This document shows positions 38,807-64,000 of a DNA stretch of 64,000 nt, piece after piece; within the stretch, counting starts at the first letter, position 1, and the number at the start of each line of letters is the position of its first letter. The stretch is from Acidobacteriota bacterium. GTDB taxonomy: Bacteria > Acidobacteriota > Vicinamibacteria > Vicinamibacterales > JAKQTR01. Both the position numbers and the translations under genes were made by a program. The stretch is from the NCBI GenBank assembly GCA_026393755.1, contig JAPKZO010000009.1, forward strand, positions 1 through 64,000, in the 5' to 3' direction. The notes below the pieces were generated by a model. That model was not told the DNA's origin. It worked only from the letters and a program-made list of their open reading frames with translations, and searched no databases.

Positions 38807-38893
38807 GATAGAGATGGATGCCCCGGCGCAACCGCGGCCGAATTGGCCGCGTCAGCCGCCTCGAAGTCGGTATCGTGCTGATTGAGAATCGCT

Positions 38894-39727
38894 ATGAACC
38901 TGGAAGAACTGGCTCGGCTGTACAACTTCAGTGGTCAGACCATCGCGGTCACGGGCGGCACCGGCATCCTCGGCGGCGAGATCGCCTGCGCACTGGTCGG
39001 ATGCGGTGCCAATGTTGCGATTCTCGACCGCAATACCGATCCGGCCGCCGGGTTGCTGGATCGGGTGGGCGCGGCGGCAAGCCGCACGGTGGTGATCGGC
39101 ACCGACGTGCTGGACGCGGCGAGCCTGCAACGCGCCGCGGATCAGATCCTGGAGAAATTCGGCAGAATCGATGCCCTGGTCAACGGCGCCGGTGGCAATC
39201 ATCCGAACTCCACAACCGGTCCCAAGTCCTCGTTCTTCCATCTGCCCCCTGATGCGCTGCGATGGGTCTTTGATCTCAACCTCCTCGGCACGATCCTCCC
39301 CTGCCAGGTGTTCGGCCAGATGATGGCCCGGCAGAAGAGCGGGACCATCCTCAATATCTCGTCGATGAACGCGTTCCGTCCGCTCACCCGCATCCCCGCG
39401 TACTCGGCGGCGAAGGCCGGCGTGAGCAACTTCACGCAGTGGCTGGCGGTGCATCTGGCGCAGGAGTACTCGCCCCTGATCCGCGTTAATGCCATCGCGC
39501 CTGGCTTCTTCCTCACGCAACAGAATCGCTTCTTGCTGACCGACGAGAAGACGGGCGACCTCACGCCGCGAGGACAGTCCATTATCAGTCACACGCCGAT
39601 GGGTCGGTTCGGCGAGCCTGTAGACTTGTTCGGCACGGTGCTGTGGCTCTTGTCGCCAGCCTCGGCCTTCGTGACGGGGATCGTCGTCCCAGTCGACGGG
39701 GGCTTCTCCGCGTTCAGCGGCGTGTAG
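38894..39727 (+). CDS. SDR oxidoreductase, mannonate-oxidoreductase (fructuronate reductase) type
   Basis: A 277-residue short-chain dehydrogenase. The nucleotide-binding motif TGGTGILG (Thr20-Gly27) is followed by NGAGGN, Ser in NISSMNA and the Tyr170-x3-Lys174 catalytic pair (AYSAAKAG). A long insert around NHPNSTTGPKSSFFHLPPD and the C-terminal DEKTGDLTPRGQSIISHTPM are features I associate with Bacillus-type UxuB, which interconverts D-fructuronate and D-mannonate. The start is ATG 38894. It is the first gene of the operon with the LarA-like epimerase (50-base gap) and 6-phosphogluconate dehydrogenase. Other sugar-acid SDR activities remain possible. Confidence 0.82.
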   Translation: MNLEELARLYNFSGQTIAVTGGTGILGGEIACALVGCGANVAILDRNTDPAAGLLDRVGAAASRTVVIGTDVLDAASLQRAADQILEKFGRIDALVNGAGGNHPNSTTGPKSSFFHLPPDALRWVFDLNLLGTILPCQVFGQMMARQKSGTILNISSMNAFRPLTRIPAYSAAKAGVSNFTQWLAVHLAQEYSPLIRVNAIAPGFFLTQQNRFLLTDEKTGDLTPRGQSIISHTPMGRFGEPVDLFGTVLWLLSPASAFVTGIVVPVDGGFSAFSGV

Positions 39728-39777
39728 GACATACGGGCAAGTGGGATAGTCGCAGCACCGCTGACGGAGCTTCTACG

Positions 39778-41067
39778 GTGGAAACGGTCACACACTCGCC
39801 AGTTGGCTCCGTGCACGGGGTGATCGGTCGCGGAGCCGGCGCGGCGCACCTGGCGCCAGACGATGTCCGAGCCGTCGTGCGGGAGGCGCTGGCGTCTCTG
39901 CCGCTTGATGGCAAGCGACTGCTGGTGATCATCCCCGACGGCACGCGAACGATGCCGATGCCGCTGATCTGGGACACGCTCGAGACTGAAGCGTGGCCGC
40001 GGGTGTCGGCGCTCGATTATCTGGTTGCACTCGGCACGCACCAGCCGATGAACGACCAGCAACTTACCCGCCTCGTGGGCCGGACGGTGGTCGGCGGCCG
40101 CGCGGGCCGGAGCCGGATCTTCAACCACCGCTGGGATGATCCGGCCACGTTCGTCACGCTGGGGACCATTCCGGCATCCGAGATCGGGACGTTGACCGGC
40201 GGTCTGTTCGATCGATCGGTCGTCGTCTCACTGAACAAGCTCATCTTCGACTACGACCAGGTGCTCATCTGCGGTCCGGTATTTCCGCACGAAGTCGTCG
40301 GGTTCTCGGGCGGCAACAAGTACCTGTTTCCGGGCATCGCGGGCCCGGATCTCATCAACTTCACGCATTGGCTGGGCGCCATCATCTGCAGCTACCACGT
40401 GATCGGTGCGGGCTACACGCCGGTGCGCGCCGTCATCGACCGGGCGGCCTCGCTGGTCACTGTTCCGGTGAGTTGCCTCGCATTGGTCGTGACCCACGAT
40501 GGCGTCGACGGGATCTACTTCGGCGCCCCCGAGGACGCGTGGCGCGCGGCGTCGGCGGTTTCGGCGAAGACCCACATCATCTACGTCGATCGGCCGTTTC
40601 GCCGCGTGCTGTCGATCATGCCGGAGATGTACGACGACCTCTGGACGGCGGCCAAGGGCATGTACAAGCTCGAGCCGGCCATCGCCGATGGCGGCGAGGT
40701 GGTAATCTACGCGCCGCACATCACCGAGGTGAGCTACACGCACGGCCGGATCATCGACGAAGTGGGATATCACTGCCGGGATTACTTCCTCGGCCAGTGG
40801 GAGCGATTCAAACAGTACCCGGGCGGCGTACTCGCGCACTCGACACACCTGAAGGGCCTCGGACAGTACGACGCCACGACCGGCGTCGAGACGCCCCGCA
40901 TCCGGGTCACGCTCGCCACCAGCATCCCGGAAGAGCGTTGCCGGCGGATCAATCTTGGCTATCTCGATCCGGCAAGCGTTAAGACAGAGGAGTGGGTCGG
41001 CCGCGAACACGAAGGCGTGCTGGTCGTCCCGCGCGCCGGCGAGATGCTGTACCGGATGAAATCATGA
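39778..41067 (+). CDS. LarA-family nickel-dependent racemase/epimerase
   Basis: A 429-residue enzyme; GTG 39778 follows GGAG by 8 bases, and the length matches lactate racemase LarA (about 424). All key LarA positions are present: Asp54 and Arg57 in PDGTRTMP, His88 in GTHQPM, His171 in PHEVVGFSGG, cofactor-lysine Lys181 in SGGNKYLFPG, and nickel ligand His197 in FTHWLG. The His171-Lys181-His197 spacing (10 and 16) equals that of Lactobacillus LarA. The family includes 2-epimerases of aldonic acids. Placed between a mannonate-type SDR and 6-phosphogluconate dehydrogenase, D-mannonate/D-gluconate 2-epimerisation is the best guess. The cofactor makers LarB, LarC and LarE are not in the window. 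Confidence 0.85.
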   Translation: METVTHSPVGSVHGVIGRGAGAAHLAPDDVRAVVREALASLPLDGKRLLVIIPDGTRTMPMPLIWDTLETEAWPRVSALDYLVALGTHQPMNDQQLTRLVGRTVVGGRAGRSRIFNHRWDDPATFVTLGTIPASEIGTLTGGLFDRSVVVSLNKLIFDYDQVLICGPVFPHEVVGFSGGNKYLFPGIAGPDLINFTHWLGAIICSYHVIGAGYTPVRAVIDRAASLVTVPVSCLALVVTHDGVDGIYFGAPEDAWRAASAVSAKTHIIYVDRPFRRVLSIMPEMYDDLWTAAKGMYKLEPAIADGGEVVIYAPHITEVSYTHGRIIDEVGYHCRDYFLGQWERFKQYPGGVLAHSTHLKGLGQYDATTGVETPRIRVTLATSIPEERCRRINLGYLDPASVKTEEWVGREHEGVLVVPRAGEMLYRMKS

Positions 41068-41089
41068 GGATGCCGAGGGAGCCTGAAGC

Positions 41090-42493
41090 ATGACGTGCGA
41101 TATCGGGGTGGTGGGACTGGGAGTGATGGGCAGCAACCTGGCCCTCAATATGGAACGCCACGGATTCCGGATTGCGGGCTACGACCTTGATGCCGCCAAG
41201 GCCGTGGCGTGGGCCGCCGGACCCGCAGCCGGTAAGCAGGTCGAAGTCGCGGCCACGCCCGATCAGCTGATGGCCATTCTGAAGAAGCCCCGCCGCGTGC
41301 TGATGATGGTGCCGGCCGGGGATCCGGTCGATCACGCGATCGCCCATCTCAAAGGCCATCTCGAGACGGGTGACATCCTGATCGACGGCGGCAACTCCCT
41401 GTTCTCCGACACCGAGCGCCGCAACAAGGCACTCGCCGCCGAGGGCTTCCACTATGTCGGCACCGGCGTGTCGGGCGGCGAACAGGGTGCGCTCTGGGGT
41501 CCGAGCATCATGCCGGGTGGTCAGCGGGAGGCCTGGGAGGCGCTCGCCCCGATCTTCCGTGCGATCGCCGCCAAGGCTGACGATGGGGCGCCGTGCGTTG
41601 AGTACATGGGACCCGGGGGCGCCGGCCATTATGTCAAGATGGTGCACAACGGAATCGAGTACGGCGACATGCAACTGATCGCCGAAACCTACGACATTCT
41701 GTCGCGCGGCCTTGGCCTGTCGGCGCCCGAACTGGCCGACGTGTTCGAGGAGTGGAACACGGGCGAACTCAAGTCCTATCTGATTGAGATCACGGCCGAG
41801 GTGCTCAGAAGGATCGACCCCGACACGGGCCGGCCGCTCGTGGACGTGATCCTCGACGAGGCGGCGCAGAAGGGCACGGGCAAGTGGATGAGCCAGAACG
41901 CGCTTGATGTGGGCGCGCCCATCCCGACGGTCAATGCGGCGGTCGAGGGACGGATCATCTCAGCGTTGAAGCCGCAGCGAGTGGCGGCCAGCCGGTTCCT
42001 GCACGGCCCCGAACCGCGGCACGTCGGCAACCGGCAGTTCCTGATCGACGCCACGCGCGATGCGCTCTACGCGAGCAAGATCACGTCATACGCGCAAGGC
42101 CTGGGATTGCTGCGCATGGCGTCAGACGAGTATGGTTACGACCTGCAGCCGGGCGACATCAGCAAGATCTGGCGAGCCGGCTGCATCATCCGCGCGGGCC
42201 TGCTCGGCGACATCATGGCGGCGTTCAGGCTCACGCCGTCGCTCGTCAATCTGCTGATGGACGAGGCGTTCCGCGACGCGATCGAGCGGCGACAGCACTC
42301 GTGGCGCTTCGTCATCCAGACCAGCGTCGGTCTGGGGATTCCCGTGCTGGCGATGAGCGCGTCGCTCGGCTACTTCGACGCGTACCGCAGCGAGAGGCTG
42401 CCTGCCAACCTTACGCAGGGGCAGAGAGACTACTTCGGCGCCCACACGTATCGTCGCATTGACAAGCCGGGTGTGTTTCACACGGAGTGGTAG
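41090..42493 (+). CDS. gnd: 6-phosphogluconate dehydrogenase, decarboxylating
   Basis: A 467-residue enzyme of full family length that oxidises 6-phosphogluconate to ribulose 5-phosphate and CO2 in the cytosol. It has the Rossmann motif VGLGVMGSNLALNME, then IDGGNSLFSDTERR, the family signature VGTGVSGGEQGALWGPSIMPG, the catalytic Lys/His region GHYVKMVHNGIEYGDMQLIA and the C-terminal GAHTYRRIDK. It starts 22 bases after the LarA-like gene on the same strand, in one operon with sugar-acid enzymes. This suggests that gluconate 6-phosphate made from hexuronates enters the pentose phosphate route. Confidence 0.95.
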   Translation: MTCDIGVVGLGVMGSNLALNMERHGFRIAGYDLDAAKAVAWAAGPAAGKQVEVAATPDQLMAILKKPRRVLMMVPAGDPVDHAIAHLKGHLETGDILIDGGNSLFSDTERRNKALAAEGFHYVGTGVSGGEQGALWGPSIMPGGQREAWEALAPIFRAIAAKADDGAPCVEYMGPGGAGHYVKMVHNGIEYGDMQLIAETYDILSRGLGLSAPELADVFEEWNTGELKSYLIEITAEVLRRIDPDTGRPLVDVILDEAAQKGTGKWMSQNALDVGAPIPTVNAAVEGRIISALKPQRVAASRFLHGPEPRHVGNRQFLIDATRDALYASKITSYAQGLGLLRMASDEYGYDLQPGDISKIWRAGCIIRAGLLGDIMAAFRLTPSLVNLLMDEAFRDAIERRQHSWRFVIQTSVGLGIPVLAMSASLGYFDAYRSERLPANLTQGQRDYFGAHTYRRIDKPGVFHTEW

Positions 42494-45111: not shown

Positions 45112-46194
45112 ATGACCAGCCGACTCACGATCCGGCCTGATGGCGAGTTTGATTTCGTGTCGCTCGGGGCGCTGGTTCATCGTCTCGATCCGGGCATCGT
45201 GCCGTTCCGCAAAGCCACGACGTGCGCCATCCACGTGAGCGGCGGCGAGTTCAACTGCGCGGCCAACCTGGCCGACTGCTTCCGGCTTAAGACCGCCGTC
45301 GTCACGGCCATGGCCGACTACCCCATCGGCGATCTCATCGCCGAACGCGTGCGGGCCATGGGCGTCGTGCCGTTCTACAAGCGCTTCGCGCACAATGGCG
45401 TGAATGGCCCCAACATGGCCACCGTCTACAGCGACCGGGGATTCGGCGTTCGCGCGCCCGTAGTGTTTTACAACCGATCGAACGAGGCGGCGGCGCTGCT
45501 CAAACCGGGCGACTTCGACTGGAACGCCATCTTCGGCGGCGGCGTGCGTTGGTTCCACAGTGGCGGTATCTTTGCGTCGCTGTCGGCGACAACCGGCGAG
45601 TTGATTGTTGAGGCCATGACGGCGGCGAAAGCCGCAGGAGCAGTGACCTCGTTTGACCTCAACTTCCGCGAGAAACTCTGGAACATCTGGGGCGGTCAGG
45701 CGAAGGCGGTGGAGGTCGTCCGGCGCATCGTCGAACACGTGGATGTGCTGGTGGGCAACGAAGAGGACCTGCAGAAGGGGCTCGGCATTGCGGGCCCGGA
45801 AGTCGCGGCAACGTCGAAGCTCGACCCGAGTGTGTTCGTTGCGATGATCGAATCGGTCATCAGGAAACACCCCAACGTGAAGGCCGTCGCTACCACGCTC
45901 AGAGAAGTCCACTCGACCAATCGACACGGCTGGGGCGCGGTGGCGTGGTTAGACGGCAGGACCTATGTGTCGCCCACGTGCGACCTGGAGATCATCGATC
46001 GCGTCGGTGGCGGCGACGGCTTCGCATCCGGGTTCATCTACGGTCTGCTGGCCGGCGAATCGCCCGACGCGGCAGTCAGGCTCGGCTGGGCGCATGGCGC
46101 GCTGCTCACGACATTCCCAGGCGACACAACGATGGCCACGGTGGAACAGGTGCGCGCGTTCGCGAAGGGCGGGTCGGCCCGGATTCAGCGGTAG
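45112..46194 (+). CDS. PfkB-family sugar kinase (2-keto-3-deoxygluconate or gluconate kinase type)
   Basis: A 360-residue ribokinase-family enzyme. It has VSGGEFNCAANLADCF (PfkB signature 1 region), SFDLNFREKLWN, VGNEEDL, and the catalytic/anion-hole motif RVGGGDGFASGFIYG, where Asp is the base. Substrates of this branch are KDG, KDGal and related sugar acids. Since 6-phosphogluconate dehydrogenase is in the neighbouring operon and the leaders are shared, it may make gluconate 6-phosphate or KDG 6-phosphate. The two cannot be told apart here. Length is slightly above the usual 310-345. The Shine-Dalgarno is weak (GTGGTAG). Confidence 0.82.
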   Translation: MTSRLTIRPDGEFDFVSLGALVHRLDPGIVPFRKATTCAIHVSGGEFNCAANLADCFRLKTAVVTAMADYPIGDLIAERVRAMGVVPFYKRFAHNGVNGPNMATVYSDRGFGVRAPVVFYNRSNEAAALLKPGDFDWNAIFGGGVRWFHSGGIFASLSATTGELIVEAMTAAKAAGAVTSFDLNFREKLWNIWGGQAKAVEVVRRIVEHVDVLVGNEEDLQKGLGIAGPEVAATSKLDPSVFVAMIESVIRKHPNVKAVATTLREVHSTNRHGWGAVAWLDGRTYVSPTCDLEIIDRVGGGDGFASGFIYGLLAGESPDAAVRLGWAHGALLTTFPGDTTMATVEQVRAFAKGGSARIQR

Positions 46195-46593: not shown

Positions 46594-46622
46594 TTGACTG
46601 ACTCCACGGTGTGTGGTAGTTT
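46594..46622 (+). promoter_or_regulatory. sigma-70 promoter of the TonB receptor gene
   Basis: TTGACT (46594-46599), a 17-base spacer and TAGTTT (46617-46622), about 84 bases before the receptor ATG. The region upstream (46560-46592) is AT-rich, which is unusual here and promoter-like. Confidence 0.5.
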
Positions 46623-46634
46623 CTGCCAGTTCAG

Positions 46635-46651
46635 AATTGGTCAGTCCAATT
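46635..46651. promoter_or_regulatory. FadR/GntR-type operator AATTGG-TCAGT-CCAATT
   Basis: A 17-bp inverted repeat with 6-base arms starting 12 bases after the -10 hexamer, so it covers the expected transcript start. It is the best copy of the ATTGGTCnGTCCA motif also found at 38593 and 44789, and it resembles UxuR/ExuR and PdhR-type boxes (AATTGG...CCAATT). Confidence 0.6.
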
Positions 46652-46705
46652 TGCCACGGCGATGCGTGCTTGAGTCGGCCGAATGGTTTGAGCGTGGAGG
46701 TCATT

Positions 46706-49700: not shown

Positions 49701-50041
49701 GAACCGACCCGTACCTGGCGGGTGCGCCAGTGATTTCAGCTGCGGGCGTCGTGTCGTACATCGATCCGGTCGCGTTCGCGGTTGCCCCGGCTGATCGGCT
49801 GGGCAACTCGGCGCGAGGCCAGGTGCGGGGACCGTCGTACTACAACTGGGACATCTCTCTGCGTAAGCAGATCCCGCTCAAGGGAACGGTCAAGGCCCAG
49901 TTCCAGGCGGACTTCTTCAACGCGTTCAACATGGTTCAGTTCCAGAACCCGGCGACCAACCTGTCGGGGTCGGGATTCGGGTTGATCACCGCGGTGCAGC
50001 CGCCTCGCAATATTCAGCTCGGGTTCCGGGTGACGTTCTAG
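46706..50041 (+). CDS. TonB-dependent receptor with carboxypeptidase-regulatory-like domain
   Basis: An 1111-residue outer-membrane receptor. GGAGG stands 5 bases before ATG 46706, and a signal peptide (VTSLIAVALLAVAPAVHAQ) follows. Residues about 25-110 are a carboxypeptidase-regulatory-like domain (GRISGIVRDSSGGVLPGVSV). A plug follows (LNGRNYLQLASLIPGAP, SINGSRGNANSLTVDGG, ISIKTASFSAEYGRNSGAAI-like) and then a barrel ending IQLGFRVTF. An operator of the uronate-type regulon covers its promoter, so it is the likely outer-membrane gate for polyuronide or oligouronide uptake. It belongs to the Oar-like group and not to SusC, and no SusD partner is present. Confidence 0.87.
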   Translation: MRRRLGMVTSLIAVALLAVAPAVHAQATTGRISGIVRDSSGGVLPGVSVTVTETKTGFTRTEGTDAQGAFIFVSLPLGNYTVGAELQGFKKASKSGFVLSADGRLTADFNLEVGQFSETVQVTVGAETVNTVSGEVARNVDRAQVQDLALNGRNYLQLASLIPGAPVMQGNMNALDIMTGLGINMSINGSRGNANSLTVDGGFNMDSGSNNSQISNVGVDFIEEVSIKTASFSAEYGRNSGAAINVVTRSGSNTFKGSVYEYLRRDKFDANDWFANLKHVAKPSLKYDNYGFSLGGPVFKDKLFFFGGVEWKKIDRFTAPTFRTIPNSAMRNGDFSSLATSLKDPSTGLAFQGNIIPPNMITADGKAIASVYAAMALKASSYTDTPTTNNALFMDPNPFRFRQEMARLDFQPSGSHRLTGRLVLDHYDLIDPGGTFITSQLPTVPTERMRPGRNVQVNHYWTIGGNLVNEAKFNYSANGQIIPPVGDTWKRDTYGFQFAQVYTGGGRYENSIPDVNVTNFASFRGAAQSLISPTWDYSFSDKLTWIKGAHTVQGGVMVVRNGKDQNGRSGYAGVLTFQTNSNTITSGNAFADVLLGNFYNYNEAQLDPMGYFRFWQREAFVSDAWRVNKQLSVEFGVRYAWQMPTSTLGNNTTSFDPALYSAAQAVTMNTNGTIVAGTGNRYNGLTRPGAVPSDQVANVPNANSPAVATVPNAKYPGYYNTQNLFAPRFSFAYTPFGDKRTVVRGGAGLFYDRPEGNLYFALVNNPPFSLSSSYLMGNLSNIQAGTVPPITPWASMNALDPNMKIPRVWNYNIGVQRDLGLWGLFAEVTYVGAKGQQQIRQPDINYPTFTDIAANAVGAKYSIDYLRPYKGYTSILMRLSDASSTYNSLQVFLSKRRGDLNFSLNYTLSKAMDNGSGNGDNPDSGVAPLAYNYGPSDNDRRHVFVGTWTYRVPFFRNERNLLGYTLGGWEISGIARYQSGGPITITGTQVIGRRADYLGTDPYLAGAPVISAAGVVSYIDPVAFAVAPADRLGNSARGQVRGPSYYNWDISLRKQIPLKGTVKAQFQADFFNAFNMVQFQNPATNLSGSGFGLITAVQPPRNIQLGFRVTF

Positions 50042-50328
50042 GGACGGGCTCAGAACCTCCGTCAGCGGATGGCTAGTCGGCCGCCAAGACGGGTGTTGAA
50101 ACCGAGTGTCATCTGCGGACCCGTCGCGGGCCGCTGAGACAAGTGGCGCGGGCCAGGCTCCTGCCGGCCGTCTTCGAAATCGAGGAGGCCGACGGGGTTC
50201 TGGCCCGTCACCGTTTCGACAGGGGATCGCCTGGCGTCCGTGCGGCCAGGCGGTGTCTCGAGCCCCCCCAGTCCATAATGACCCGATTATCCGGATCCGG
50301 AATTGCTCGGCCTTCATGGAGTCCGTCG

Positions 50329-51690
50329 ATGAAAACGATTCTGGCTGTTGCGCTCGCATGTGTGCTGCTGGCCGTTCCAGTCGTCGCGCAAGACGGCGGT
50401 TGGCGGCCGCTCTTCAACGGGAAGAGCCTCGACGGCTGGTATCAGTGCAACGGAACGGCTCCGTTCACCGTCGAGGATGGGACGATCACCGGCCGGACCG
50501 TCGTCAAGTCGCCCAACAGCTTCCTGTGCACGAAGGAACGCTTCGGCGATTTCATCCTCGAGTACGACGTATGGGTCGCGACCAATCTGAACAGTGGGAT
50601 GCAGCTTCGAAGCACCGCCGATCCGGCCATCAAGAACGGGCGCGTTCACGGCTACCAGGTCGAGATCGACCCGTCGGATCGGGCATGGAGCGGCGGGATC
50701 TACGACGAGGCTCGCCGGGGGTGGCTCCACACCCTGGTCGGCCAGGACGCCGCACGCAACGCGTTCAAGATGGGTGAGTGGAACAGGTTCCGCGTCGAGG
50801 CCATCGGCACGTCCATCCGAACCTGGCTCAACGGCGTTCCCTGCGCGAACATCGTGGACGACCTCTCACCGACCGGGATCCTCGGCCTGCAGGTTCATTC
50901 AATCGGATCGGACGAGAAGAAGACGGGAGAACTCATCCGGTTCCGCAACATCCGTATCCTCACGCAGAATCTCGAAGCGAACCGGACGGCCGACAAGGGC
51001 GACACGCCGCAGTTCAACTACATCCCGAACACGCTGACCGTCCGTGAGAAGAAGGAGGGCTGGACACTGCTGTGGGACGGCACCTCGAAAGCCGGGTGGC
51101 GCGGCGCGAAGTCGGACACCTTCCCCACAGGCGGATGGGAGATCAAGGACGGCGTGCTGGCGGTTGACGAAACCGGTGGCCAGGAATCCACGGCAGGCGG
51201 CGACATCGTCACGGTTGACCAGTACGAGAACTTCGAACTGATCGTGGACTACAACATCACGAAGGGCGCCAACAGCGGCGTCAAGTACTTCGTCGACACG
51301 ACGCTGAACAAGGGGGCGGGCTCTTCGATCGGGTGCGAGTTCCAGATTCTCGATGACGACGTGCACCCCGACGCGAAGCTGGGGGTCAACGGCAACCGGA
51401 AGAATGCCGGCCTCTACGACTTGATTCCGCCACAAAACATCCGGTTCAATGGCGTCGGCGAGTGGAACCGTGCGCGGATTATCGTCCAGGGGAAACATGT
51501 CGAGCACTGGCTCAACGGGTTCAAGACGGTCGAGTACGAGCGCGCCACGCAGATGTGGCGAGCGCTGGTGGATCACAGCAAGTATGTGGTCTGGCCAAAG
51601 TTCGGCGAGGCACCCAAGGGGCACATTCTGCTGCAGGACCACGGTAACCGGGTGTCGTTTCGATCGATCAAGATTCGCGAACTGAAGTAG
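50329..51690 (+). CDS. exported protein with two DUF1080 (3-keto-glycoside hydrolase-like) domains
   Basis: A 453-residue protein. ATG 50329 is preceded by GGAG at 8 bases and followed by the signal peptide KTILAVALACVLLAVPVVAQ. Two DUF1080 (concanavalin/laminin-G-like) units lie in tandem, residues about 22-215 (WRPLFNGKSLDGWYQCNG, LNSGMQLRS, HGYQVEIDPS) and about 245-453 (WTLLWDGTSKAGWRGAKS, ANSGVKYFVD, GCEFQILDDD). Members of this family act on 3-keto-glycosides. The adjacent Gfo/Idh/MocA gene (24 bases downstream) could make or reduce such 3-keto sugars. The 287-base gap upstream shows no gene. Confidence 0.87.
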   Translation: MKTILAVALACVLLAVPVVAQDGGWRPLFNGKSLDGWYQCNGTAPFTVEDGTITGRTVVKSPNSFLCTKERFGDFILEYDVWVATNLNSGMQLRSTADPAIKNGRVHGYQVEIDPSDRAWSGGIYDEARRGWLHTLVGQDAARNAFKMGEWNRFRVEAIGTSIRTWLNGVPCANIVDDLSPTGILGLQVHSIGSDEKKTGELIRFRNIRILTQNLEANRTADKGDTPQFNYIPNTLTVREKKEGWTLLWDGTSKAGWRGAKSDTFPTGGWEIKDGVLAVDETGGQESTAGGDIVTVDQYENFELIVDYNITKGANSGVKYFVDTTLNKGAGSSIGCEFQILDDDVHPDAKLGVNGNRKNAGLYDLIPPQNIRFNGVGEWNRARIIVQGKHVEHWLNGFKTVEYERATQMWRALVDHSKYVVWPKFGEAPKGHILLQDHGNRVSFRSIKIRELK

Positions 51691-51714
51691 GCCGGTCGAG
51701 GGAACGGAGGGCAC

Positions 51715-53178
51715 ATGTCACATTCATCACGCAGCGAGCGCGAGGCGTCGCGGCGCCGGTTTCTGAAGACGTCCATCGCCGCGTCCGCCGGGTTGTTCCT
51801 GCCGACGTTCATTCCTCGCACGTACTTGTTCGGCGCGCAGACTCCACCGAGCCGCCGGATCAACGTGGCGCAGATTGGCTGCGGTCGGATGGGCACCGAG
51901 GATTTGCGCGGCACGATGGCGCACGACCTCTGCCGCATGGTGGCGGTATGCGATCTCGACGCGAAGCGCCTGGAACAGGCGCGGGCCGAGGTCGAGCAGT
52001 TCTACAAGGCCAAGGGCGAGAGTCGCGTGGACGTCAAGGCGTACCGCGACTACCACGAGGTGCTGGCCAGGCCAGACATCGACGCCGTGATCGTGACCCC
52101 GCCGGATCACTGGCACGCGATTGTCGCGGTTGAGGCGGTGCTGGCCGGCAAGGACCTGCACGTGCAGAAGCCCCTGACGTACGACATTGCCGAGGCCATC
52201 GCGCTGCGCACGGCCGTTCGCGCCAAGGGACGCATTCTTCAGACGGGCAGCCAGCAGCGGTCGTCACAACCATGGAACACGTTCCGCATTGCCACCGAAG
52301 CGGTGCGCAACGGAAGGATCGGGCAGATCAAGACCATCAGGGTGGGGATTGGCCAGGACAAGCCGAAAGGACAGGCGCCAATAGCCCAGCCCGTGCCCGC
52401 GACGTTCGACTACGAGACGTGGCTCGGTCCGGCGCCGCAGCAGCCGTACATGGAAGATCGCGTGCACCCCCAGGAGGGGTATGGCCGGCCCGGTTGGATT
52501 ACGACCGAGGACTTCGGTCTCGGGATGATCACCAACTGGGGCGCGCACCACATGGACATCGCCCATTGGGGCATGGGGATGGAATTGAGCGGGCCGACGA
52601 GCATCGAGGCTCGCGCCGACTTCATGACCGGAGATGTGTGGACGGTGCACGAGACATATCACGTCGAAATGACGTACCCCAACGGCGTGCTGCTCATCAT
52701 GGACAACTCGTTTCCGAACGGCGTCCGATTCGAGGGCACTGAAGGCTGGGTGTTCTGTGCGCGCGGATCCGCGCAGGTGACGAGCAGCGATCCTGGGGCC
52801 ACTGGCCAGAAGGACGGGCGGAAGTCGCTCGATGCCAGCGACCTTCGACTGCTGAGCGCGCCGTACGGACCCAACGCCAAGCGCTGGATGGCCAGCGAGA
52901 ATTCCTATCGAAACTGGCTCGAAGCAATAGCCAAGCGCCAGGACCCGATCGCACCTGTTGATCAGGCGGCCCGCAGTCTCGAGGCGTGTGCCGCCGCCTG
53001 GATCGGGATGAAGCTCAGGCGAAAGCTCACGTGGGATCCGAAACTCGAGCAGTTCGTCGGCGATGCGGAGGCCAACGCGATGTGCGCGCGCAAGCCCCGC
53101 GCTGCCAAGTACGACCTCGCACAGATCATGAAGTCGGCGGGCCTCGTCAAGAGCCCAGCGCCGTCGCCGGTGAAGTGA
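51715..53178 (+). CDS. Tat-exported Gfo/Idh/MocA-family oxidoreductase
   Basis: A 487-residue NAD(P)-dependent sugar oxidoreductase. A twin-arginine signal (ASRRRFLKTSIAASAGLFLP) is followed by the Rossmann motif VAQIGCGRMGTE, DHWHAIVAVEAVLAGKD and VQKPLTYD, where Gln replaces the usual Glu of the EKP motif. That replacement is common in the Tat-exported branch I know. It probably acts as a periplasmic glycoside 3-dehydrogenase or reductase with tightly bound cofactor and works with the DUF1080 protein encoded just upstream. The C-terminal domain has NWGAHHMDIAHWGMG. Confidence 0.9.
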   Translation: MSHSSRSEREASRRRFLKTSIAASAGLFLPTFIPRTYLFGAQTPPSRRINVAQIGCGRMGTEDLRGTMAHDLCRMVAVCDLDAKRLEQARAEVEQFYKAKGESRVDVKAYRDYHEVLARPDIDAVIVTPPDHWHAIVAVEAVLAGKDLHVQKPLTYDIAEAIALRTAVRAKGRILQTGSQQRSSQPWNTFRIATEAVRNGRIGQIKTIRVGIGQDKPKGQAPIAQPVPATFDYETWLGPAPQQPYMEDRVHPQEGYGRPGWITTEDFGLGMITNWGAHHMDIAHWGMGMELSGPTSIEARADFMTGDVWTVHETYHVEMTYPNGVLLIMDNSFPNGVRFEGTEGWVFCARGSAQVTSSDPGATGQKDGRKSLDASDLRLLSAPYGPNAKRWMASENSYRNWLEAIAKRQDPIAPVDQAARSLEACAAAWIGMKLRRKLTWDPKLEQFVGDAEANAMCARKPRAAKYDLAQIMKSAGLVKSPAPSPVK

Positions 53179-56615: not shown

Positions 56616-57758
56616 TCATGAACCCGAGGACTTCGCCATCTTGTAGACCTCGCTGCCAGCCGCGAGCAGCGCGCCAACGCCGTACACTTCCGTCGTGTCC
56701 ACCGTCGTGGCTCCAGGCTTATCTCCGATGCGCTGGACCCAGCCAAGCATGCCATCGGGACGAACAGCCTTGACCATCGCGGCCCATCCACGTTGGACGT
56801 TGGACTCGTAGCGGGTTCTGTCCAACAGGCCGTTGTTGATCCCCCACGCGAGGCCGAACGTGAAGAAGCCGGTTCCGCTCGTCTCAGGATTCGGCAGGCT
56901 TGTCGCATCCAGCAGGCTCGCCCGCCAGAACCCGTCCTCACCCTGCACGGATGCGATCTTGTCCGCCATCTCCTTGAAGAGCGCCACGTATCTGGGGCGA
57001 TCCGGATAGTCGGCCGGCATATCCTGCAGCATCCGAGCCAGACCCGCGAAGACCCAGCCGTTGCCGCGGCTCCAGAACACCTTCTTGCCATTCGGTTCGC
57101 GCTGATCAAGATACCGGCTGTCGCGGTAATAGAGCTTCTCGGTCCTGTCGTACAGGTAGTCGGTGGTCTTCCACCACAGGCGGTTGGCCAGATCGAGGTA
57201 CCTGCGATCGCCAGTCGCCGCGCTCACGGCCGCGAGCGCCGGCGGCCCCATAAAGAGGGCGTCACACCAGGCCCACTCGCGGGTCTCGATGGCGTTTCCC
57301 CACAGGAGCGGCTCATCGTACTTCCGCGTCAGCAGGAAGTTGAACAACGCCAGCGCCGGCGCGAGTATCGTCTTGTCGCGGTCTCGCTGGAAGATCTTCG
57401 CGTAGGTGGCGATCACGGCGTAGTCGTCCGCGTGGCCTGGCCGAAGCCCGGGCCGCCACTGATTCCGCTGGCCCATCGCCTTCATCGCCTCGAAGTACTT
57501 CGGATGGTCGGAGACGTCGGCGAACGCCATCACCCCCGTGTAGAAGGCCGCCTGTGTCCAGTCGTACGGCGCATGGTCGGATGGGTGATCGAGCTGCCAG
57601 TCGGCCGCGGCCGTCATCACCTTGAGGATGGCTCGCTGGTCGATGTCGGCGCTGAACGCCGTTGGTGACACTTGCGCACTCTGCGCCAAAGCCGGCGCCG
57701 CCGAATCCATCAGGACAGCAGCCAGGATTCCGCCCACAATAGACACTGATCGGTTCAT
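56616..57758 (-). CDS. GH105/GH88-type unsaturated glycuronyl hydrolase
   Basis: A 380-residue exported enzyme with an (alpha/alpha)6 barrel. After the signal peptide (SIVGGILAAVLMDSAAPALAQ) come NAIETREWAWCDALFMGPP, whose Asp is the catalytic acid of the family, HADDYAVIATYAKIF, and the hallmark VFWSRGNGWVFAGLARML. The enzyme hydrates the 4,5-double bond of unsaturated uronic acids left by polysaccharide lyases and thereby frees them. It is first in an operon with the large GH2 gene and divergent from the beta-glucuronidase-like gene. Two FadR-type operators lie in the shared intergenic region. Confidence 0.87.
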   Translation of the reverse strand: MNRSVSIVGGILAAVLMDSAAPALAQSAQVSPTAFSADIDQRAILKVMTAAADWQLDHPSDHAPYDWTQAAFYTGVMAFADVSDHPKYFEAMKAMGQRNQWRPGLRPGHADDYAVIATYAKIFQRDRDKTILAPALALFNFLLTRKYDEPLLWGNAIETREWAWCDALFMGPPALAAVSAATGDRRYLDLANRLWWKTTDYLYDRTEKLYYRDSRYLDQREPNGKKVFWSRGNGWVFAGLARMLQDMPADYPDRPRYVALFKEMADKIASVQGEDGFWRASLLDATSLPNPETSGTGFFTFGLAWGINNGLLDRTRYESNVQRGWAAMVKAVRPDGMLGWVQRIGDKPGATTVDTTEVYGVGALLAAGSEVYKMAKSSGS

Positions 57759-57898: not shown

Positions 57899-57989
57899 AG
57901 GGGCACTCCAGACGGCGGCGGCGCCTCGGGAGCCGGCTGTCTCGGGCGGAGGGTACGCGAGGAACCGGGTGACAACAGGAGGTGGGCCG

Positions 57990-59805
57990 ATGAGTCGAGT
58001 CGTTCGTATGACCGTGTTCGCGACGCCGCTGTTGCTGGTCGCGGTGGGCTTCACCCGACAACCGGCCGGACTCGCGCCATCGGCCGGACTTGCGCAACCA
58101 ACCGGCCTCATCGCCAACATCGAGCACCGGTCGACAATCAGCCTCAACGGGCCGTGGCACTACATCGTCGATCCGTACGACTCTGGCTATTACGACTACC
58201 GGCACCTGCCCCGCACGGACGGCTATTTCCAGAATGCGGTGCCGCGCGACAAGCGCGACCTGGTCGAATACAGCTTCGCAAAGTCCGACACTCTGATGGT
58301 TCCGGGCGACTGGAACAGCCAGAAGAAGGAGCTCTTCTACTACGAGGGCACGGTCTGGTACGAGCGCTCGTTCACCTATCGCAAGCCGCCAAGCAAACGG
58401 GTGTTTCTCGCCGTGGGCGCCGCGAACTACCTCGCTCGCGTCTACGTGAACGCCAAGCAGGTGTGCGAACACGAAGGCGGCTTCACTGGCTTCAACTGCG
58501 AAGTGACGGACCAGGTGAACGACGGCGAGAACTTCGTGGTGATCTATGTCAACAACCAGCGGCGACGCGACGCGGTGCCCACCGATGTGACGGACTGGTG
58601 GAATTATGGTGGGCTGACCCGCGACGTCGAGCTGGTCGAGGTACCGGCCATCTTCCTCGAGGACTACTTCCTTCAGTTGCGCAAGGGTTCGGTCAGCCAC
58701 ATTGAGGGCTGGGTGCGGATGAGCGAGGGTTCCCACCCGGTGACGGTGCGGATCCCGGAACTGAACGTCGAGCAGCGGGTCCAGACCGACGCGACCGGCG
58801 CAGCCGACATCCGAATCGATGCGCCGGGGCTGGAACGCTGGTCGGAATGGGGAAGTCGTCCGCGACCGCATCGGCTTCCGCACCATCGAGGTGCGCGGGC
58901 GCGAGATCCTGGTGAACGGCACGCCGGTGTTCCTGCGCGGCATCTCCATGCACGAAGAGGCGCCGCTCCGCTCGGGGCGCGGGTCGAGCGAGCAGGATGC
59001 CACCACGCTCCTCGGATGGGTGCAGGAACTGAACGGCAATTTTGCGCGGCTCGCGCACTACCCGCACAATCGCAATATGGCGCGCGTGGCGGATCGCGCC
59101 GGCGTATTCCTCTGGTCCGAAATCCCGGTGTACTGGACGATCGACTGGGAGAATCCGGCGACGCTGGCCAACGCGAAGCGGCAACTCGGCGAGATGATCC
59201 GGCGCGACAAGAATCGCGCGTCCGTGATTCTGTGGTCGGTCGGCAACGAGACGCCGCTGACGCCGGCCCGTCTGGCGTTCATGACCGAGCTGGTGACGAC
59301 CGCGCACCGGCTGGATCCCAGCAGGCCTGTGACCGCGGCGCTCGAGACGCACTACACCGACCGCAACACCAAGGTCATCGACGACCCGCTCGGCAAGGTG
59401 CTCGACGTGCTCGGGTGCAACGAATACGTAGGCTGGTACGAGCGCACGCCCGAGGACGCCGACGCGATTACGTGGAAGACCGTCTACGACAAGCCCCTTG
59501 TCATGAGCGAGTTCGGCGGTGACGCCCGCGCCGGTCTCCACGGCGGCGTCGATGAGCGCTGGACCGAGGAGTACCAGGAGAATCTGTATCAGCACCAGTT
59601 CGAGATGCTGAAGAAGATCGACTTCCTGCGGGGCGCGAGCCCGTGGATCCTCATGGACTTCCGGTCGCCCCGCCGGGTGCTGCCGGGCATTCAGGACAAC
59701 TACAATCGTAAGGGCCTCGTGTCGGACAAGGGAGAGAAGAAGAAGGCGTTCTTTGCCCTAAAGGACTTCTACCGCCAACGTCTCGCGGGCCAGCCCGCAA
59801 GGTGA
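57990..59805 (+). pseudogene. GH2 beta-glucuronidase, broken by a frameshifting deletion
   Basis: A gene of about 605 codons with AGGAGGT before ATG 57990. The first frame gives the jelly-roll and Ig-like domains (VTDWWNYGGLTRDVELVEVP, as in beta-glucuronidases) up to LERWS near 58844. The barrel continues in the +1 frame from NGEVVRDRIGFRTIEV near 58846. About 10-20 codons normally present between these points are missing, so it is a small deletion not divisible by three. The barrel is otherwise complete: acid/base Glu in SVGNE (59248-59250), nucleophile Glu in SEFGGD (59509-59511), NEYVGWY, and Asn-Arg-Lys at 59704-59712, matching the NxK uronate-recognition motif. It is either a recent pseudogene or a sequence error. 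Confidence 0.78.
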
Positions 59806-59899
59806 CGCCCGCAAGCGCGGCGACACGCGCGTCGGTCAGATGGGTTTCCCGATGCTCAGAACGCGGCCGACAGCATATGCTTCGGCCCGCGGAGGCTGC

Positions 59900-61171
59900 G
59901 TGACACGACTGGGAATTGGCGTCATTGGTGCGGGCGCGGCGGTGCTCTGGTTGACGGCCGGTTCGGGATCCACGAGCGGCGCGGCCGATCCTGGAGCGCA
60001 AATGGGAACCGTCAGCGTTGACGTCTGGCGGCCGGATGAGCCACCGATTCCGGACGTTCGTCGATTCGCTCTGACCGAAGCCGACCGGCGGCGTGTGTTC
60101 CAGGCCGCCGAGGCGTACCTGAAAGAAGCGCCGGTGACAGTGACCGCTTCTCACTCGCCCCGGAGCGCGGGGGGGCTTCACGACTTCTCTTCCGAAGGCG
60201 ATTACTGGTGGCCGGATCCGGTGAATCCAGGCGGTCCGTACATCCAGCGTGACGGGATGTCGAACCCGGACAATTTCGTAGACCATCGCCGGGCGATGAT
60301 CAGATTCAGCGAGCACGTCTCCACGCTGACCTCCGCATACGTGCTGACTCGTGACGAGCGGTTCTCCGCGCACGCCATCATCCACTTGCGCGCGTGGTTC
60401 ATCGACGAAGCCACGCGGATGAACCCGAATCTGCTGTACGCGCAGGCGATCTGCAAGAAGGCGACGGGGCGGGGTACCGGCATCATCGATACGATTCATC
60501 TGGTTGAGGTGGCGCGGGCGACCGAACGGCTCTCGATCTCGACATCGGCCCGACCGGCGGACATCGCGGGCATCAAGGACTGGTTCTCTCGGTATCTCGC
60601 GTGGCTGACCACTCATCAGTACGGCATCGACGAGCGGAATGCGAAGAACAATCACGGTACCTGCTGGGTGATGCAGGTGGCGGCGTTCGCGCACCTCACT
60701 GGCAACACCGCCATACTCGATGATTGTCGCAAACGGTACAAGGACGTGCTGCTGCCCGGTCAGATGGCCGCTGACGGGAGCTTCCCTCTCGAAATCAAGC
60801 GCACCAAGCCGTATGGCTATTCGCTCTTCAACCTCGACGCCTTCGCGACCATCTGCCAGATCGTGTCGACGCCGAACGACTCCCTCTGGACGTTCGCGCT
60901 CCCCGATGGCCGGGGGATTCGGAAAGGCATGGCCTTTCTGTTCCCATACATGAAGAACAAGGCCGCCTGGCCGTTTCCGAAGGATGTGATGTACTTCGAC
61001 GAGTGGCCTGTCAGGCATCCCAGCCTGTTGTTTGCGGGGCTCGGGCTGAATGAGGGCGCGTACCTCGACTTGTGGGCTTCGCTCAATTCGTCGCCCACCA
61101 CCGAGGAGGTCATCAGAAATCTGCCGGTCCGCCATCCGCTTCTTTGGGTGGAGGTGCCCTCCACACCTTGA
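59900..61171 (+). CDS. alginate-lyase-family polysaccharide lyase
   Basis: An exported lyase of about 423 residues with an alpha/alpha-toroid fold (PF05426-like; PL5/PL38 relatives that cleave alginate or glucuronan). GTG 59900 has GGAGG 4 bases upstream and begins a signal peptide (TRLGIGVIGAGAAVLWLTAG); the ATGs at 59840 and 59852 have no ribosome site. Landmarks are SEGDYWWPDPVNPGGPYIQR, the catalytic NAKNNHGTCW, and YGYSLFNLDAF with the catalytic Tyr candidate. It should cut uronic-acid polymers by beta-elimination and so feed the GH105 enzyme. A second, truncated member lies at 53237. Confidence 0.83.
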   Translation: MTRLGIGVIGAGAAVLWLTAGSGSTSGAADPGAQMGTVSVDVWRPDEPPIPDVRRFALTEADRRRVFQAAEAYLKEAPVTVTASHSPRSAGGLHDFSSEGDYWWPDPVNPGGPYIQRDGMSNPDNFVDHRRAMIRFSEHVSTLTSAYVLTRDERFSAHAIIHLRAWFIDEATRMNPNLLYAQAICKKATGRGTGIIDTIHLVEVARATERLSISTSARPADIAGIKDWFSRYLAWLTTHQYGIDERNAKNNHGTCWVMQVAAFAHLTGNTAILDDCRKRYKDVLLPGQMAADGSFPLEIKRTKPYGYSLFNLDAFATICQIVSTPNDSLWTFALPDGRGIRKGMAFLFPYMKNKAAWPFPKDVMYFDEWPVRHPSLLFAGLGLNEGAYLDLWASLNSSPTTEEVIRNLPVRHPLLWVEVPSTP

Positions 61172-61241: not shown

Positions 61242-62132
61242 ATGGACATCGATATTGCCGTGGTTCCCGTCGCCGGTCTCGGTACGCGATTGCTTCCGGC
61301 CACGAAGTCGCAACCCAAGGAAATGCTGCCGGTCGGGCGCAAGCCGGTCGTGCAGTACGTCGTCGAAGAACTGACCCGGGTCGGGATCAAGCGCATGCTG
61401 TTCATCACGGGGCCGGGCAAGACCTCGATCGAGAATCACTTTGATCTGAACGGCGAACTGATTCAGACCCTGCGCGAGACAGGCAAAGAGGAGCTGCTGG
61501 CCGAACTGGAGTTCGACCGGACCGCGGTCCAGTACTTCTACACGCGCCAGCGCCAGTTGCTTGGCCTTGGACACGCGGTATTGTGCGCCCGGGCACTGGT
61601 CGGCCACCAGCCGTTCGTCGTGGCCCTGGGAGATTCCATCATCGGGATGCACGCCGAATCCGATGTGGTTGGGCGGATGACTCGTCAATTCGTCGACAAC
61701 CACGCGGTGGCCGTCATCGCGTTTGAGGAGGTGCCCGACGCCGACGTCTCCAACTACGGCATCGCGCGGCCGCGAACCAGCGGAGACGTCTTCGAAGTGG
61801 CCGACCTGGTCGAAAAGCCCGCCAGGTACGAGGCCCCGAGCAACCTGGCCATCGCGGCCCGCTACGTGCTCTCGCCCCTGATTTTCGACGCGCTCGCCAG
61901 GACCTCTCCAGGCAAGGATGGAGAGATTCAGCTGACCGACGCGATTCGATCACTGTTGCGCGACGGTGGCCGCGTGTACGGCGTGCGGCTGCATCATGAT
62001 GAACGCCGGTACGATATCGGGAACTTCGAGTCCTATTTCGAAGCGTTTGTCGAGTTCGCCCTCGCCGATGCGAAGTTCGGTCCGGCGCTCCGGCGCCGGC
62101 TGGAGGAACTGCTCCATGTTCCTCACGCGTAA
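61242..62132 (+). CDS. galU: UTP-glucose-1-phosphate uridylyltransferase (UDP-sugar pyrophosphorylase)
   Basis: A 296-residue nucleotidyltransferase. The start is ATG 61242. Motifs are VVPVAGLGTRLLPATKSQPK (nucleotide-binding loop with the catalytic Arg and Lys), ALGDSIIG (Mg-binding Asp), VEKPARYEAPSN, and GKDGEIQLTDAI. Length fits GalU (about 290-300). The gene overlaps the glucuronokinase-like gene by 17 bases. In that context it may accept glucuronic acid 1-phosphate as well as glucose 1-phosphate and make UDP-glucuronate or UDP-glucose. The wider specificity is inference. Confidence 0.9.
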   Translation: MDIDIAVVPVAGLGTRLLPATKSQPKEMLPVGRKPVVQYVVEELTRVGIKRMLFITGPGKTSIENHFDLNGELIQTLRETGKEELLAELEFDRTAVQYFYTRQRQLLGLGHAVLCARALVGHQPFVVALGDSIIGMHAESDVVGRMTRQFVDNHAVAVIAFEEVPDADVSNYGIARPRTSGDVFEVADLVEKPARYEAPSNLAIAARYVLSPLIFDALARTSPGKDGEIQLTDAIRSLLRDGGRVYGVRLHHDERRYDIGNFESYFEAFVEFALADAKFGPALRRRLEELLHVPHA

Positions 62133-63123
62133 CCGCGCCTACGCGCGGGCGGGCCTCGTCGGCAACCCCTCGGACGGGTACCACGGCAAGACGATTTCGA
62201 TCAGCGTCAGGAATTTCTGTGCCGAGGTGGTGTTGTACGAATGGGATTCGGTCGACATCGTGCTGGCCGAAGGCGATCGGGCGACGTTCGGATCGGTATA
62301 CGACCTTGCGCGCGATGTGCGCCTGCACGGCTACTACGGCGGCATCCGGCTCATCAAGGCGACGATCAAACAGTTCGTCGAGTACTGCCAGAGCCGCAAG
62401 CTGACACTTCACGAGCGAAACTTCTCGGTTCGCTATCAGACGAACATCCCGCGACAGGTCGGGCTGGCCGGGTCGAGCGCGATTATCGTGGCCACCCTCC
62501 GCAGCCTGATGGACTTCTACGGTATCCGGATTCCCATCGAAGCCCAGCCGAGCTTTGTGCTGCGGGTTGAGCAGAAGGAACTCGGCATCGCCGCCGGACT
62601 CCAGGACCGCGTCATTCAGGTCTACGAAGGCCTGGTCTACATGGACTTCGACAGACGCTGCGAACGGATCGTCGAGGGACTGCCCTCCTATCATTACGAA
62701 CGGCTCGATCCCGCCCTCCTGCCAAACATGTACCTGGCGTACCACGACGCGCTGAGCGAACCGACGGAAGTGTTTCACAACAACATCCGCGAACGCTTCA
62801 ACCGCGGCGAACCGGAGGTAATCCAGGCGATGACGCACTTCGCGGGCCTGGCTGCCCAGGGACGCGACGCGCTGCTGGCGGGCGATGCCGAGGCGCTGGC
62901 TGCGCTGATGAACGAGAATTTCGACACACGCCGTAGCATCTACCAGCTTCCGCCGTGGCAGATCGATCAGATCGAGATCGCGCGGCGCTGCGGCGCGAGC
63001 GCCAAGTTTGCGGGATCGGGCGGGGCGATCCTGGGCACGTACCGAGACGAACCGATGTTCGACAATGTCCGCGCACAACTGTCGCTGGCCGGTTCCCGGA
63101 CGATCAAGCCCATCGTCTCCTGA
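62116..63123 (+). CDS. GHMP kinase, glucuronokinase-like
   Basis: A 335-residue sugar-1-kinase of the GHMP family. ATG 62116 lies inside the end of galU with GGAGGA 8 bases upstream. The N-terminus (ARAGLVGNPSDGYHGKTISI) strongly resembles plant glucuronokinase, where GNPSD and GKTIS precede a variable lobe. The ATP loop is PRQVGLAGSSAIIVATL, and the C-terminal GHMP motif is FAGSGGAILGTY. Expected reaction: D-glucuronate + ATP to glucuronate 1-phosphate, which a UDP-sugar pyrophosphorylase turns into UDP-glucuronate. The overlap with galU and the polyuronide context support this. Other GHMP substrates (galactose, arabinose, heptose) are possible. Confidence 0.8.
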   Translation: MFLTRNRAYARAGLVGNPSDGYHGKTISISVRNFCAEVVLYEWDSVDIVLAEGDRATFGSVYDLARDVRLHGYYGGIRLIKATIKQFVEYCQSRKLTLHERNFSVRYQTNIPRQVGLAGSSAIIVATLRSLMDFYGIRIPIEAQPSFVLRVEQKELGIAAGLQDRVIQVYEGLVYMDFDRRCERIVEGLPSYHYERLDPALLPNMYLAYHDALSEPTEVFHNNIRERFNRGEPEVIQAMTHFAGLAAQGRDALLAGDAEALAALMNENFDTRRSIYQLPPWQIDQIEIARRCGASAKFAGSGGAILGTYRDEPMFDNVRAQLSLAGSRTIKPIVS

Positions 63124-63125
63124 CG

Positions 63126-64000
63126 CTACTTCTTCGGTGGCGGGGCGGTAGACGACGGGGCGGGTTTACCGTCAACCGAGTCCGGCTCCATCAGCTCGCT
63201 GCGCGTGCCATCCGGATCGTAGAGATTGAGCTGGCGCTTGCGGTTGATGCCCGTCCGGACCTCCATCGTCTGCGTATAGCCGGCGCGTCCGGCCCGCGCC
63301 CTCAGCGTGGCCTCGGCCTTCGCAATGTCCGTCACGAATAGCGCGATGTGATGTTGGCTGCCCCGCTTCGCCGGTTCCGGCAGATCCCGACCGAGCATGA
63401 ACTCGACGTAGTCGTCGCCGTCCGGCACCTGCAGGTTGACCCAGCTGAGCTCTTTGCCGTCTCGGCTCCCTCGCCACGTTTCCTTGAACCCCAGGACGTC
63501 CCCGTAGAAGCTCACTGCCTGGTCTAGCGCACCCACCAGGATCCCCAGGTGGCGCATGTCGCGTGACACCGCGTCACCGGTCATCAACTGCCCCTTCGCC
63601 AGGGCCGGCATGCCGGTCGGTTCGTACTCCACAAACTCCAGCGTGTGGCCGTCCGGGTCTTTCACGTTGAAACTGGTGTTGCCGATCCGCCCCTTGCTGA
63701 CCTTGTCGGGCACGGTGATGCCGCGCGCCTTCAGATACAGGCGCATCCCTTCGGCGTCGTTGGTCTCGACGGCGATGTGAGCCAGTCGATCGCTTCCGGC
63801 TTCGCGTTCCGGAAATAACTCGATGTAGTGCCGGTCGTTGATCTTGATGAATGTGAGCGAGAGCGTGCCGTCAGGATTCTTGAGGGGGAAGGCCTCGTCA
63901 TACCCGAGGAACGTCTCGTAGAACGCGCGCGACTTCTCGATGTCGTGGACGTAGAGCGCGGCGTGCGCGATGCCCACGATTCTGGGCCGCCGCGGTTCCT
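63126..64000 (-). CDS. double-domain VOC (glyoxalase-fold) protein, runs off the window
   Basis: Two vicinal-oxygen-chelate domains are visible: residues from HAALYVHDIEKSRAFYETFL to DPDGHTLEFVEYEP, and from MRHLGILVGALDQAVSFYGD to DPDGTRSELMEPD. A Pro-rich tail (SSTAPPPKK) follows. Metal-ligand positions (His and Glu at strand starts) look present in both units. An in-frame GTG at 63977 could be the start, but the reading continues to the right edge with RRPRIV, and relatives usually carry a signal peptide there, so the gene is probably cut by the window. The substrate is unknown. Stops of this gene and the GHMP kinase gene are 2 bases apart (convergent). Confidence 0.78.
   Translation of the reverse strand, partial: EPRRPRIVGIAHAALYVHDIEKSRAFYETFLGYDEAFPLKNPDGTLSLTFIKINDRHYIELFPEREAGSDRLAHIAVETNDAEGMRLYLKARGITVPDKVSKGRIGNTSFNVKDPDGHTLEFVEYEPTGMPALAKGQLMTGDAVSRDMRHLGILVGALDQAVSFYGDVLGFKETWRGSRDGKELSWVNLQVPDGDDYVEFMLGRDLPEPAKRGSQHHIALFVTDIAKAEATLRARAGRAGYTQTMEVRTGINRKRQLNLYDPDGTRSELMEPDSVDGKPAPSSTAPPPKK

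Follow-up and report, generated by a model that had tools for sequence, protein, structure and literature searches.

A pair of overlapping genes in an acidobacterial genome encodes a GHMP-family kinase and a GalU-type uridylyltransferase that probably act together as a UDP-glucuronate salvage module, consisting of a glucuronokinase and a GalU adapted to glucuronate 1-phosphate. The pair lies towards one end of a contig stretch of 64,000 nucleotides, here called the window (Table 1). Many capsules, exopolysaccharides, and pentose-containing glycans are built from UDP-glucuronate, for which UDP-glucose dehydrogenase is generally regarded as the bacterial source. In the proposed pathway, the neighbouring lyase and glycosidases would release free D-glucuronate from uronic-acid polymers, and an ExuT-like carrier would import it. 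The kinase would phosphorylate the sugar at the anomeric position (C1) with ATP, and the linked GalU, with serine in place of aspartate at its C6-facing site, would join glucuronate 1-phosphate to UTP to yield UDP-glucuronate, bypassing UDP-glucose dehydrogenase. The isomerase UxaC would compete with salvage by drawing the same glucuronate into catabolism. The sequences establish the pair itself, its conservation, the separation of the kinase family from galactokinases and heptose kinases, the residue change in GalU, and the hexuronate setting; we infer the substrate, anomeric position, product, direction, and flux of this pathway.

Table 1. Coordinates of the gene pair, its diagnostic codons, and nearby genes related to uronate metabolism in the window
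Feature	Position	Strand	Evidence
D-mannonate oxidoreductase, UxuB-like	38882..39727	+	NF006132 359 bits, cut-off 281
LarA-superfamily putative hexonate epimerase	39643..41067	+	NF052594 172 bits, best NCBIfam match, below cut-off 500
6-phosphogluconate dehydrogenase (Gnd)	41090..42493	+	NF006765 671 bits, cut-off 413
PfkB sugar kinase, KDG-kinase type	45112..46194	+	PF00294; NF041633 240 bits, below cut-off 700
GH88/GH105-type unsaturated uronyl hydrolase	56616..57758	-	PF07470 E 1.3e-78
GH2 beta-glucuronidase-like gene, frame-broken near 58850	57969..59805	+	NF007538 matches in two frames; stops and frame switch
Alginate_lyase-family polysaccharide lyase	59840..61171	+	PF05426 E 3.4e-86
GalU-type uridylyltransferase, 296 aa	61242..62132	+	NTP_transferase E 1.4e-29; TIGR01099 286.6 bits, cut-off 326.8
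Ser132 codon (C6-facing position; Asp in ordinary GalUs)	61635..61637	+	Alignment of 94 window-type and 30 ordinary rows
Gene overlap, 17 bp	62116..62132	+	Sequence
GHMP-family kinase, proposed glucuronokinase, 335 aa	62116..63123	+	GHMP_kinases_N (PF00288) E 3.2e-11; GHMP_kinases_C (PF08544) E 1.1e-6
Asn17-Pro18-Ser19-Asp20 codons, in place of the galactokinase E-H-T-D sugar-binding motif	62164..62175	+	Invariant in 105/105 rows
Asp164-Arg165 codons, proposed catalytic Asp region	62605..62610	+	Invariant in 105/105 rows; role inferred from the GHMP family

The two genes are read in different frames through their shared bases, and the overlap suggests that the galU-like gene and the kinase may be translationally coupled. 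A preliminary description of this DNA had given the overlap as 17 bases, which is exact, with strands and frames in agreement. It had also placed the pair after genes for a polymer lyase and a beta-glucuronidase; this order is right, but the split in the GH2 gene had gone unnoticed. An assignment to the fused DrGKUP type, in which a single polypeptide carries both domains, was considered and rejected, the domains being encoded here by two open reading frames.

The kinase forms a family of its own. A maximum-likelihood tree was built from 43 GHMP kinases, drawn from the relatives' galactokinases, homoserine kinases, and IspE, from two HddA-like groups, from the solved heptokinase 3k85, and from the kinase family (with groups of relatives named by eye from their motifs). 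In it the family forms one clade with 100/100 support and the galactokinases form another. The family is also set apart from the HddA-like kinases of the order and from 3k85. No NCBIfam equivalog was matched at its cut-off. Mevalonate kinase was rejected as an identity on score (TIGR00549, 50.9 bits against a cut-off of 163.05), and the HddA/WcbL heptokinase on both score (NF049969, 40.7 bits against 600) and position in the tree. An unauthenticated sequence that we take to be Arabidopsis glucuronokinase (GLCAK) joined the kinase family at 100/100 and is treated as a lead only. This presumed GLCAK shares 42-43% identity with the family over the full length, and the motifs GNPSD, NIPRQ, and GLQDR are common to both.

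Active-site residues are conserved throughout the family. Arg11, the Asn17-Asp20 motif, and Asp164-Arg165 are invariant in a 105-row alignment, which counts the window's own sequence twice, and Arg113 is present in 98 of the rows. Where the kinase family reads R-A-G-L-V-G-N-P-S-D-G (in the window, ARAGLVGNPSDGY), the galactokinases of the order have R-V-N-L-I-G-E-H-T-D-Y (GRVNLIGEHTDY). An identity as galactokinase (GalK) was rejected on this replacement of the GRxNLIGEHxDY motif, as well as on the separate clade. In galactokinase structures, the glutamate of this motif contacts the C6 hydroxyl of the sugar; its exchange for asparagine would therefore remove a charge that is disfavoured by a C6 carboxylate. 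An AlphaFold model of the kinase (pLDDT 89.3, pTM 0.89) shows the sugar-kinase fold. The model's scores against galactokinases, a heptokinase, and mevalonate kinases are nearly the same (Z about 31-33), so the fold gives no indication of the substrate; identity to GalK and heptose kinases in the structure alignments is about 14-20%.

The family is sharply bounded, as shown by the gap between its members and all other matches. A close full-length copy is found in seven of 40 genomes of the order, the window's included, at 66-100% identity, while the remaining matches reach at most 32%. One genome from the window's own genus is without a close copy. Across the phylum, the kinase occurs in 23 of 396 Acidobacteriota genomes, and the phylum containing the Balneolaceae locus L048 has it in 10 of 394 genomes. 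Such patchy occurrence is that of an accessory gene. When bacterial and archaeal genomes were scanned, relatives numbered at least 565. The best-matching 80, which are 57-81% identical over practically their entire length, lie on contigs labelled Acidobacteria, Chloroflexi/Anaerolineae, Verrucomicrobia, Planctomycetota, Balneolales, Desulfobacterales, and Raymondbacteria. No plant or virus-borne GLCAK was found in a scan of viral contigs.

The association with GalU extends far beyond the window. Among the 76 loci with enough flanking DNA, which span several phyla, 73 have a window-type GalU directly upstream of the kinase; this constancy indicates that the arrangement is not due to chance. The galU and kinase matches touch or overlap in 25 of these 73 linked loci, with the window's own overlap geometry in 13. 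For 22 further Acidobacteriota kinases, GalU is upstream in 16, and one of the remaining six begins at a contig end. The linked GalU of the window falls below the GalU equivalog cut-off (Table 1). All the motifs of the superfamily (GTR, PKEM, RQ, GLGH, the metal-binding aspartate, and EK) are present in it, and their counterparts in Klebsiella GalU are functionally required. The window's genome encodes a second, ordinary GalU (G000:C28:408780-409643) that is 47% identical to the linked one. In the corresponding tree, window-type kinase-linked GalUs form a clade of their own, apart from ordinary GalUs, with 100/100 support.

The two types of GalU differ at a position likely to touch the substrate. 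Position 132, in the numbering of the window's enzyme (P0001), is serine in 94/94 window-type rows and aspartate in 30/30 ordinary GalUs; the solved structures 5i1f and 7o2n carry aspartate at the matching position. In the Pseudomonas aeruginosa enzyme UGP, the counterpart residue D131 helps coordinate the glucose moiety, and its alanine mutant is almost inactive (PMC11796359). In a model of Bacteroides fragilis FKP, Val137, beside the metal-binding Asp136, faces the C6 methyl group of fucose 1-phosphate (PMC11982464). Judging from the shared metal-binding aspartate, Val137 and position 132 are presumably equivalent, and together these observations place the exchange of aspartate at the site of the C6 group. 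Since Klebsiella GalU has valine at this position, yet is fully active on glucose 1-phosphate, the loss of aspartate alone is no proof of a new substrate. In four of the five other genomes examined (G410-G413), neither an ordinary GalU, other matches being at most 31% identical, nor a PF01704 enzyme was found; the linked GalU may therefore also serve there as the general UDP-glucose enzyme. These four genomes, with loci L227, L226, L225, and L229, are from Balneolaceae, Anaerolineae, Verrucomicrobia, and Planctomycetes.

A second GalU lineage accompanies the same kinase family in Bacteroidota. The gene order is reversed on a plasmid of Rufibacter tibetensis, the sole record found in the plasmid search, where the kinase is followed by GalU and the genes are annotated "GHMP kinase" and "GalU". 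A phylum-wide search yielded four more reversed loci (L234, L235, L240, L242) and five others in the window order. The GalUs downstream of the kinase branch with ordinary GalUs and are not sister to the window type, and all five have threonine at the aspartate position. Among 118 Bacteroidota genomes, a GalU match at E<=1e-40 is confined to two, in each of which it lies next to the kinase. Two unrelated GalU lineages have thus become attached to one kinase family, and both have lost the same acidic residue. We regard this double linkage, along with the hexuronate context described below, as the strongest evidence for the module. The kinase-downstream GalUs (L125, L234, L235, L240, L242) also read GLGD, not GLGH, in the nucleotide loop.

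Some members of the kinase family are found without GalU. Two divergent kinases of this kind have a transporter gene as their direct neighbour, either a DctP TRAP carrier or an MFS carrier of the ExuT type. In one Acidobacteriota subgroup without an adjoining GalU, a nucleotidyltransferase-like gene (MKPTLVVLAAGIGSRYGSLKQ...) lies about 2-4 kb from the kinase (L148:5771-6676, L149:12530-13441, L150:4641-5546). No NCBIfam model recognized this gene at 1e-10; its product might be an alternative partner of the kinase in these three genomes. On two Planctomycetaceae contigs (L098, L100), a kinase without adjacent GalU comes after a gene that, by eye, resembles glucosamine-6-phosphate isomerase.

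The genes surrounding the pair point to hexuronate metabolism. Orthologues of the lyase precede the pair in two other loci (L036, L158), and the solved chains nearest to the window's lyase, 3nfv and 8bdq, are called alginate lyases. A frame change near 58850 splits the GH2 gene, with residues apparently absent at the junction, as would result from a pseudogene, a recent deletion, or an assembly error. Beyond the window's edge, genes for UxaC, an ExuT-like carrier, and a GntR regulator follow within 0.2-3.7 kb on the same contig (L166). The uxaC product, glucuronate isomerase, scores 595 bits against a cut-off of 387, and the carrier is an MFS protein of the hexuronate/galactonate type whose best match, TIGR00893, is below cut-off. 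In a review of hexuronate catabolism, UxaC is described as uronate isomerase (PMC6353982). Between the kinase and uxaC, the minus strand carries a two-domain gene of the VOC/glyoxalase family (63126-63977 of the window, continuing to C9:64079). Genes for an Oar-like outer-membrane beta-barrel, a 3-keto-disaccharide hydrolase-family protein, and a GFO/IDH/MocA oxidoreductase occupy 46613-53178 and are probably part of the same polysaccharide-use locus. There was no PADLOC match to suggest a role in defence.

This context recurs in relatives of the window. One of them (G002) carries, contiguously, a hexonate epimerase-like gene, gnd, a PfkB kinase, GalU, the kinase, uxaC, and the carrier, and uxaC also flanks the pair in G003 and G024, as well as in the Desulfobacterota loci L044 and L047. 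Among 112 neighbouring proteins, no recurrent neighbour family was found outside Acidobacteriota and Desulfobacterota, as would be expected if the pair were a self-contained two-gene module. The genes at 38882-42493 and 45112-46194 of the window and at L160:3132-6925 suggest that glucuronate may be catabolized through fructuronate, mannonate, gluconate, and 6-phosphogluconate to ribulose 5-phosphate, not by the KDG route. Epimerization between mannonate and gluconate is known for LarA groups 19 and 20 (PMC7583248). The window's genome also contains two UDP-glucose dehydrogenase-type genes, hence salvage is not its sole possible source of UDP-glucuronate. A search for inositol oxygenase gave no match in this genome and equally none in any control genome.

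Several other substrates were weighed against glucuronate, the main rival being galacturonate. The kinase might be an anomeric kinase for galacturonate or mannuronate, with the pair making UDP-galacturonate or a similar UDP-uronate, but we judge this unlikely. UxaC and ExuT serve both the glucuronate and the galacturonate pathways, so these neighbours do not separate the two substrates and galacturonate remains the chief competitor; the membership of the adjacent lyase in the Alginate_lyase family is another point in favour of a different uronate. Against it stands the likeness of the whole family to the unauthenticated sequence that we take to be GLCAK. The adjacent GH2 gene, though frame-broken, is glucuronidase-like, the galacturonokinase of Arabidopsis reportedly has a very different sequence, and zebrafish GLCAK does not use galacturonate (PMC3938481).

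The linked GalU could instead be an ordinary or broad UDP-glucose pyrophosphorylase, fed by the kinase with a neutral sugar 1-phosphate such as glucose 1-phosphate or galactose 1-phosphate. Its fold and catalytic motifs are kept and in several genomes no other GalU-type enzyme was found, but the window's genome already has a separate ordinary GalU, and the C6-facing aspartate is lost in two kinase-linked lineages. Given also that the kinase is without the galactokinase EHTD motif, falls outside the galactokinase clade, and is encoded beside uronate genes, a neutral sugar is improbable. Most doubtful is an HddA/WcbL-type heptose (phosphate) kinase or a divergent mevalonate-type kinase, for which we see very little chance. 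The heptokinases 3k85 and 4usk are the nearest solved sequences, NCBIfam matches to mevalonate kinase and HddA do occur, and the fold scores are similar; those matches are, however, far under the curated cut-offs, the HddA-like kinases of the order branch elsewhere in the tree, the kinase's partner is a uridylyl-type GalU rather than a guanylyltransferase, and no heptose genes are nearby.

The proposed UDP-glucuronate salvage module has counterparts among characterized systems. The zebrafish enzyme DrGKUP joins a GHMP kinase and a nucleotidyltransferase of bacterial type in one fused protein; it phosphorylates only glucuronate among nine sugars, with a Km of 31 uM, and its nucleotidyltransferase is nearly inactive in vitro (PMC3938481). 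The window's pair resembles it in coupling a GHMP kinase to a bacterial-type nucleotidyltransferase with UDP-glucuronate as the end product, the glucuronate specificity being that of DrGKUP and here proposed from the genes. Unlike DrGKUP, a single protein in which a nucleotidyltransferase of about 260 aa comes first, the pair consists of two separate genes and a longer GalU. Arabidopsis GLCAK and UDP-sugar pyrophosphorylase (USP) carry out the same two reactions that are proposed here from sequence. Plant USP, however, is a different, larger, broad-substrate enzyme, and plant glucuronate comes from inositol rather than, as seems to be the case here, from polymer degradation and uptake. Free-sugar salvage by a GHMP kinase and a nucleotidyltransferase is also known from B. 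fragilis FKP, an L-fucokinase/GDP-fucose pyrophosphorylase (PMC11982464). The window's kinase model matches FKP kinase domain structures (9iit, 9iip), but FKP acts on fucose with GTP as one fused protein and has no close sequence relation to the pair. Within the same genome, the linked GalU is like the ordinary GalU in fold, length, and catalytic motifs, and unlike it in its separate clade, its linkage to the kinase, its Ser132, and its score below the equivalog cut-off. The kinase shares the GHMP fold and motifs of GalK, HddA, and WcbL, and differs from them in its sugar-binding motif and its clade.

The preliminary description had read the pair as a glucuronokinase-GalU salvage route akin to that of plants. 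This reading gains support from the hexuronate neighbours, the conservation across phyla, the second GalU lineage, and the change at the C6 site; the module is nevertheless not a copy of the plant route, its second enzyme being of the GalU type and not a plant USP. Grouping of the kinase with galactokinase or heptose kinases, which was to count against that reading, is not seen in the 43-kinase tree. The route had also been called poorly described in bacteria, and the open-access literature searched describes no bacterial glucuronokinase, a scope that leaves priority uncertain. The hexuronate-catabolism review, checked for kinases and UDP-sugars, showed no glucuronate kinase in bacteria (PMC6353982). 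The authors of the DrGKUP study state that bacterial and archaeal genomes carry the pyrophosphorylase alone, and that a fully functional homologue was missing as a control (PMC3938481).

A wider proposal is that the kinase family of at least seven lineages (Acidobacteriota, Chloroflexota, Planctomycetota, Verrucomicrobiota, Bacteroidota, Desulfobacterota, and Raymondbacteria) recruited GalU at least twice, that each GalU was turned into a UDP-glucuronate pyrophosphorylase by the same change at the C6 site, that UDP-glucuronate is thereby made without UDP-glucose dehydrogenase, and that the plant and animal enzymes are later versions of a bacterial invention. We put this forward tentatively, as a possibility that falls somewhat short of probable. 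If the salvage function holds true, the annotations "GHMP kinase" and "GalU" would change in many genomes, and a salvage pair would explain the presence of two GalUs in some of them. The pair would also provide bacterial enzymes for the one-pot synthesis of UDP-glucuronate. For the nucleotidyltransferase step, the zebrafish study noted the lack of a "fully functional homologous enzyme" as a positive control (PMC3938481), and the pair would fill that gap.
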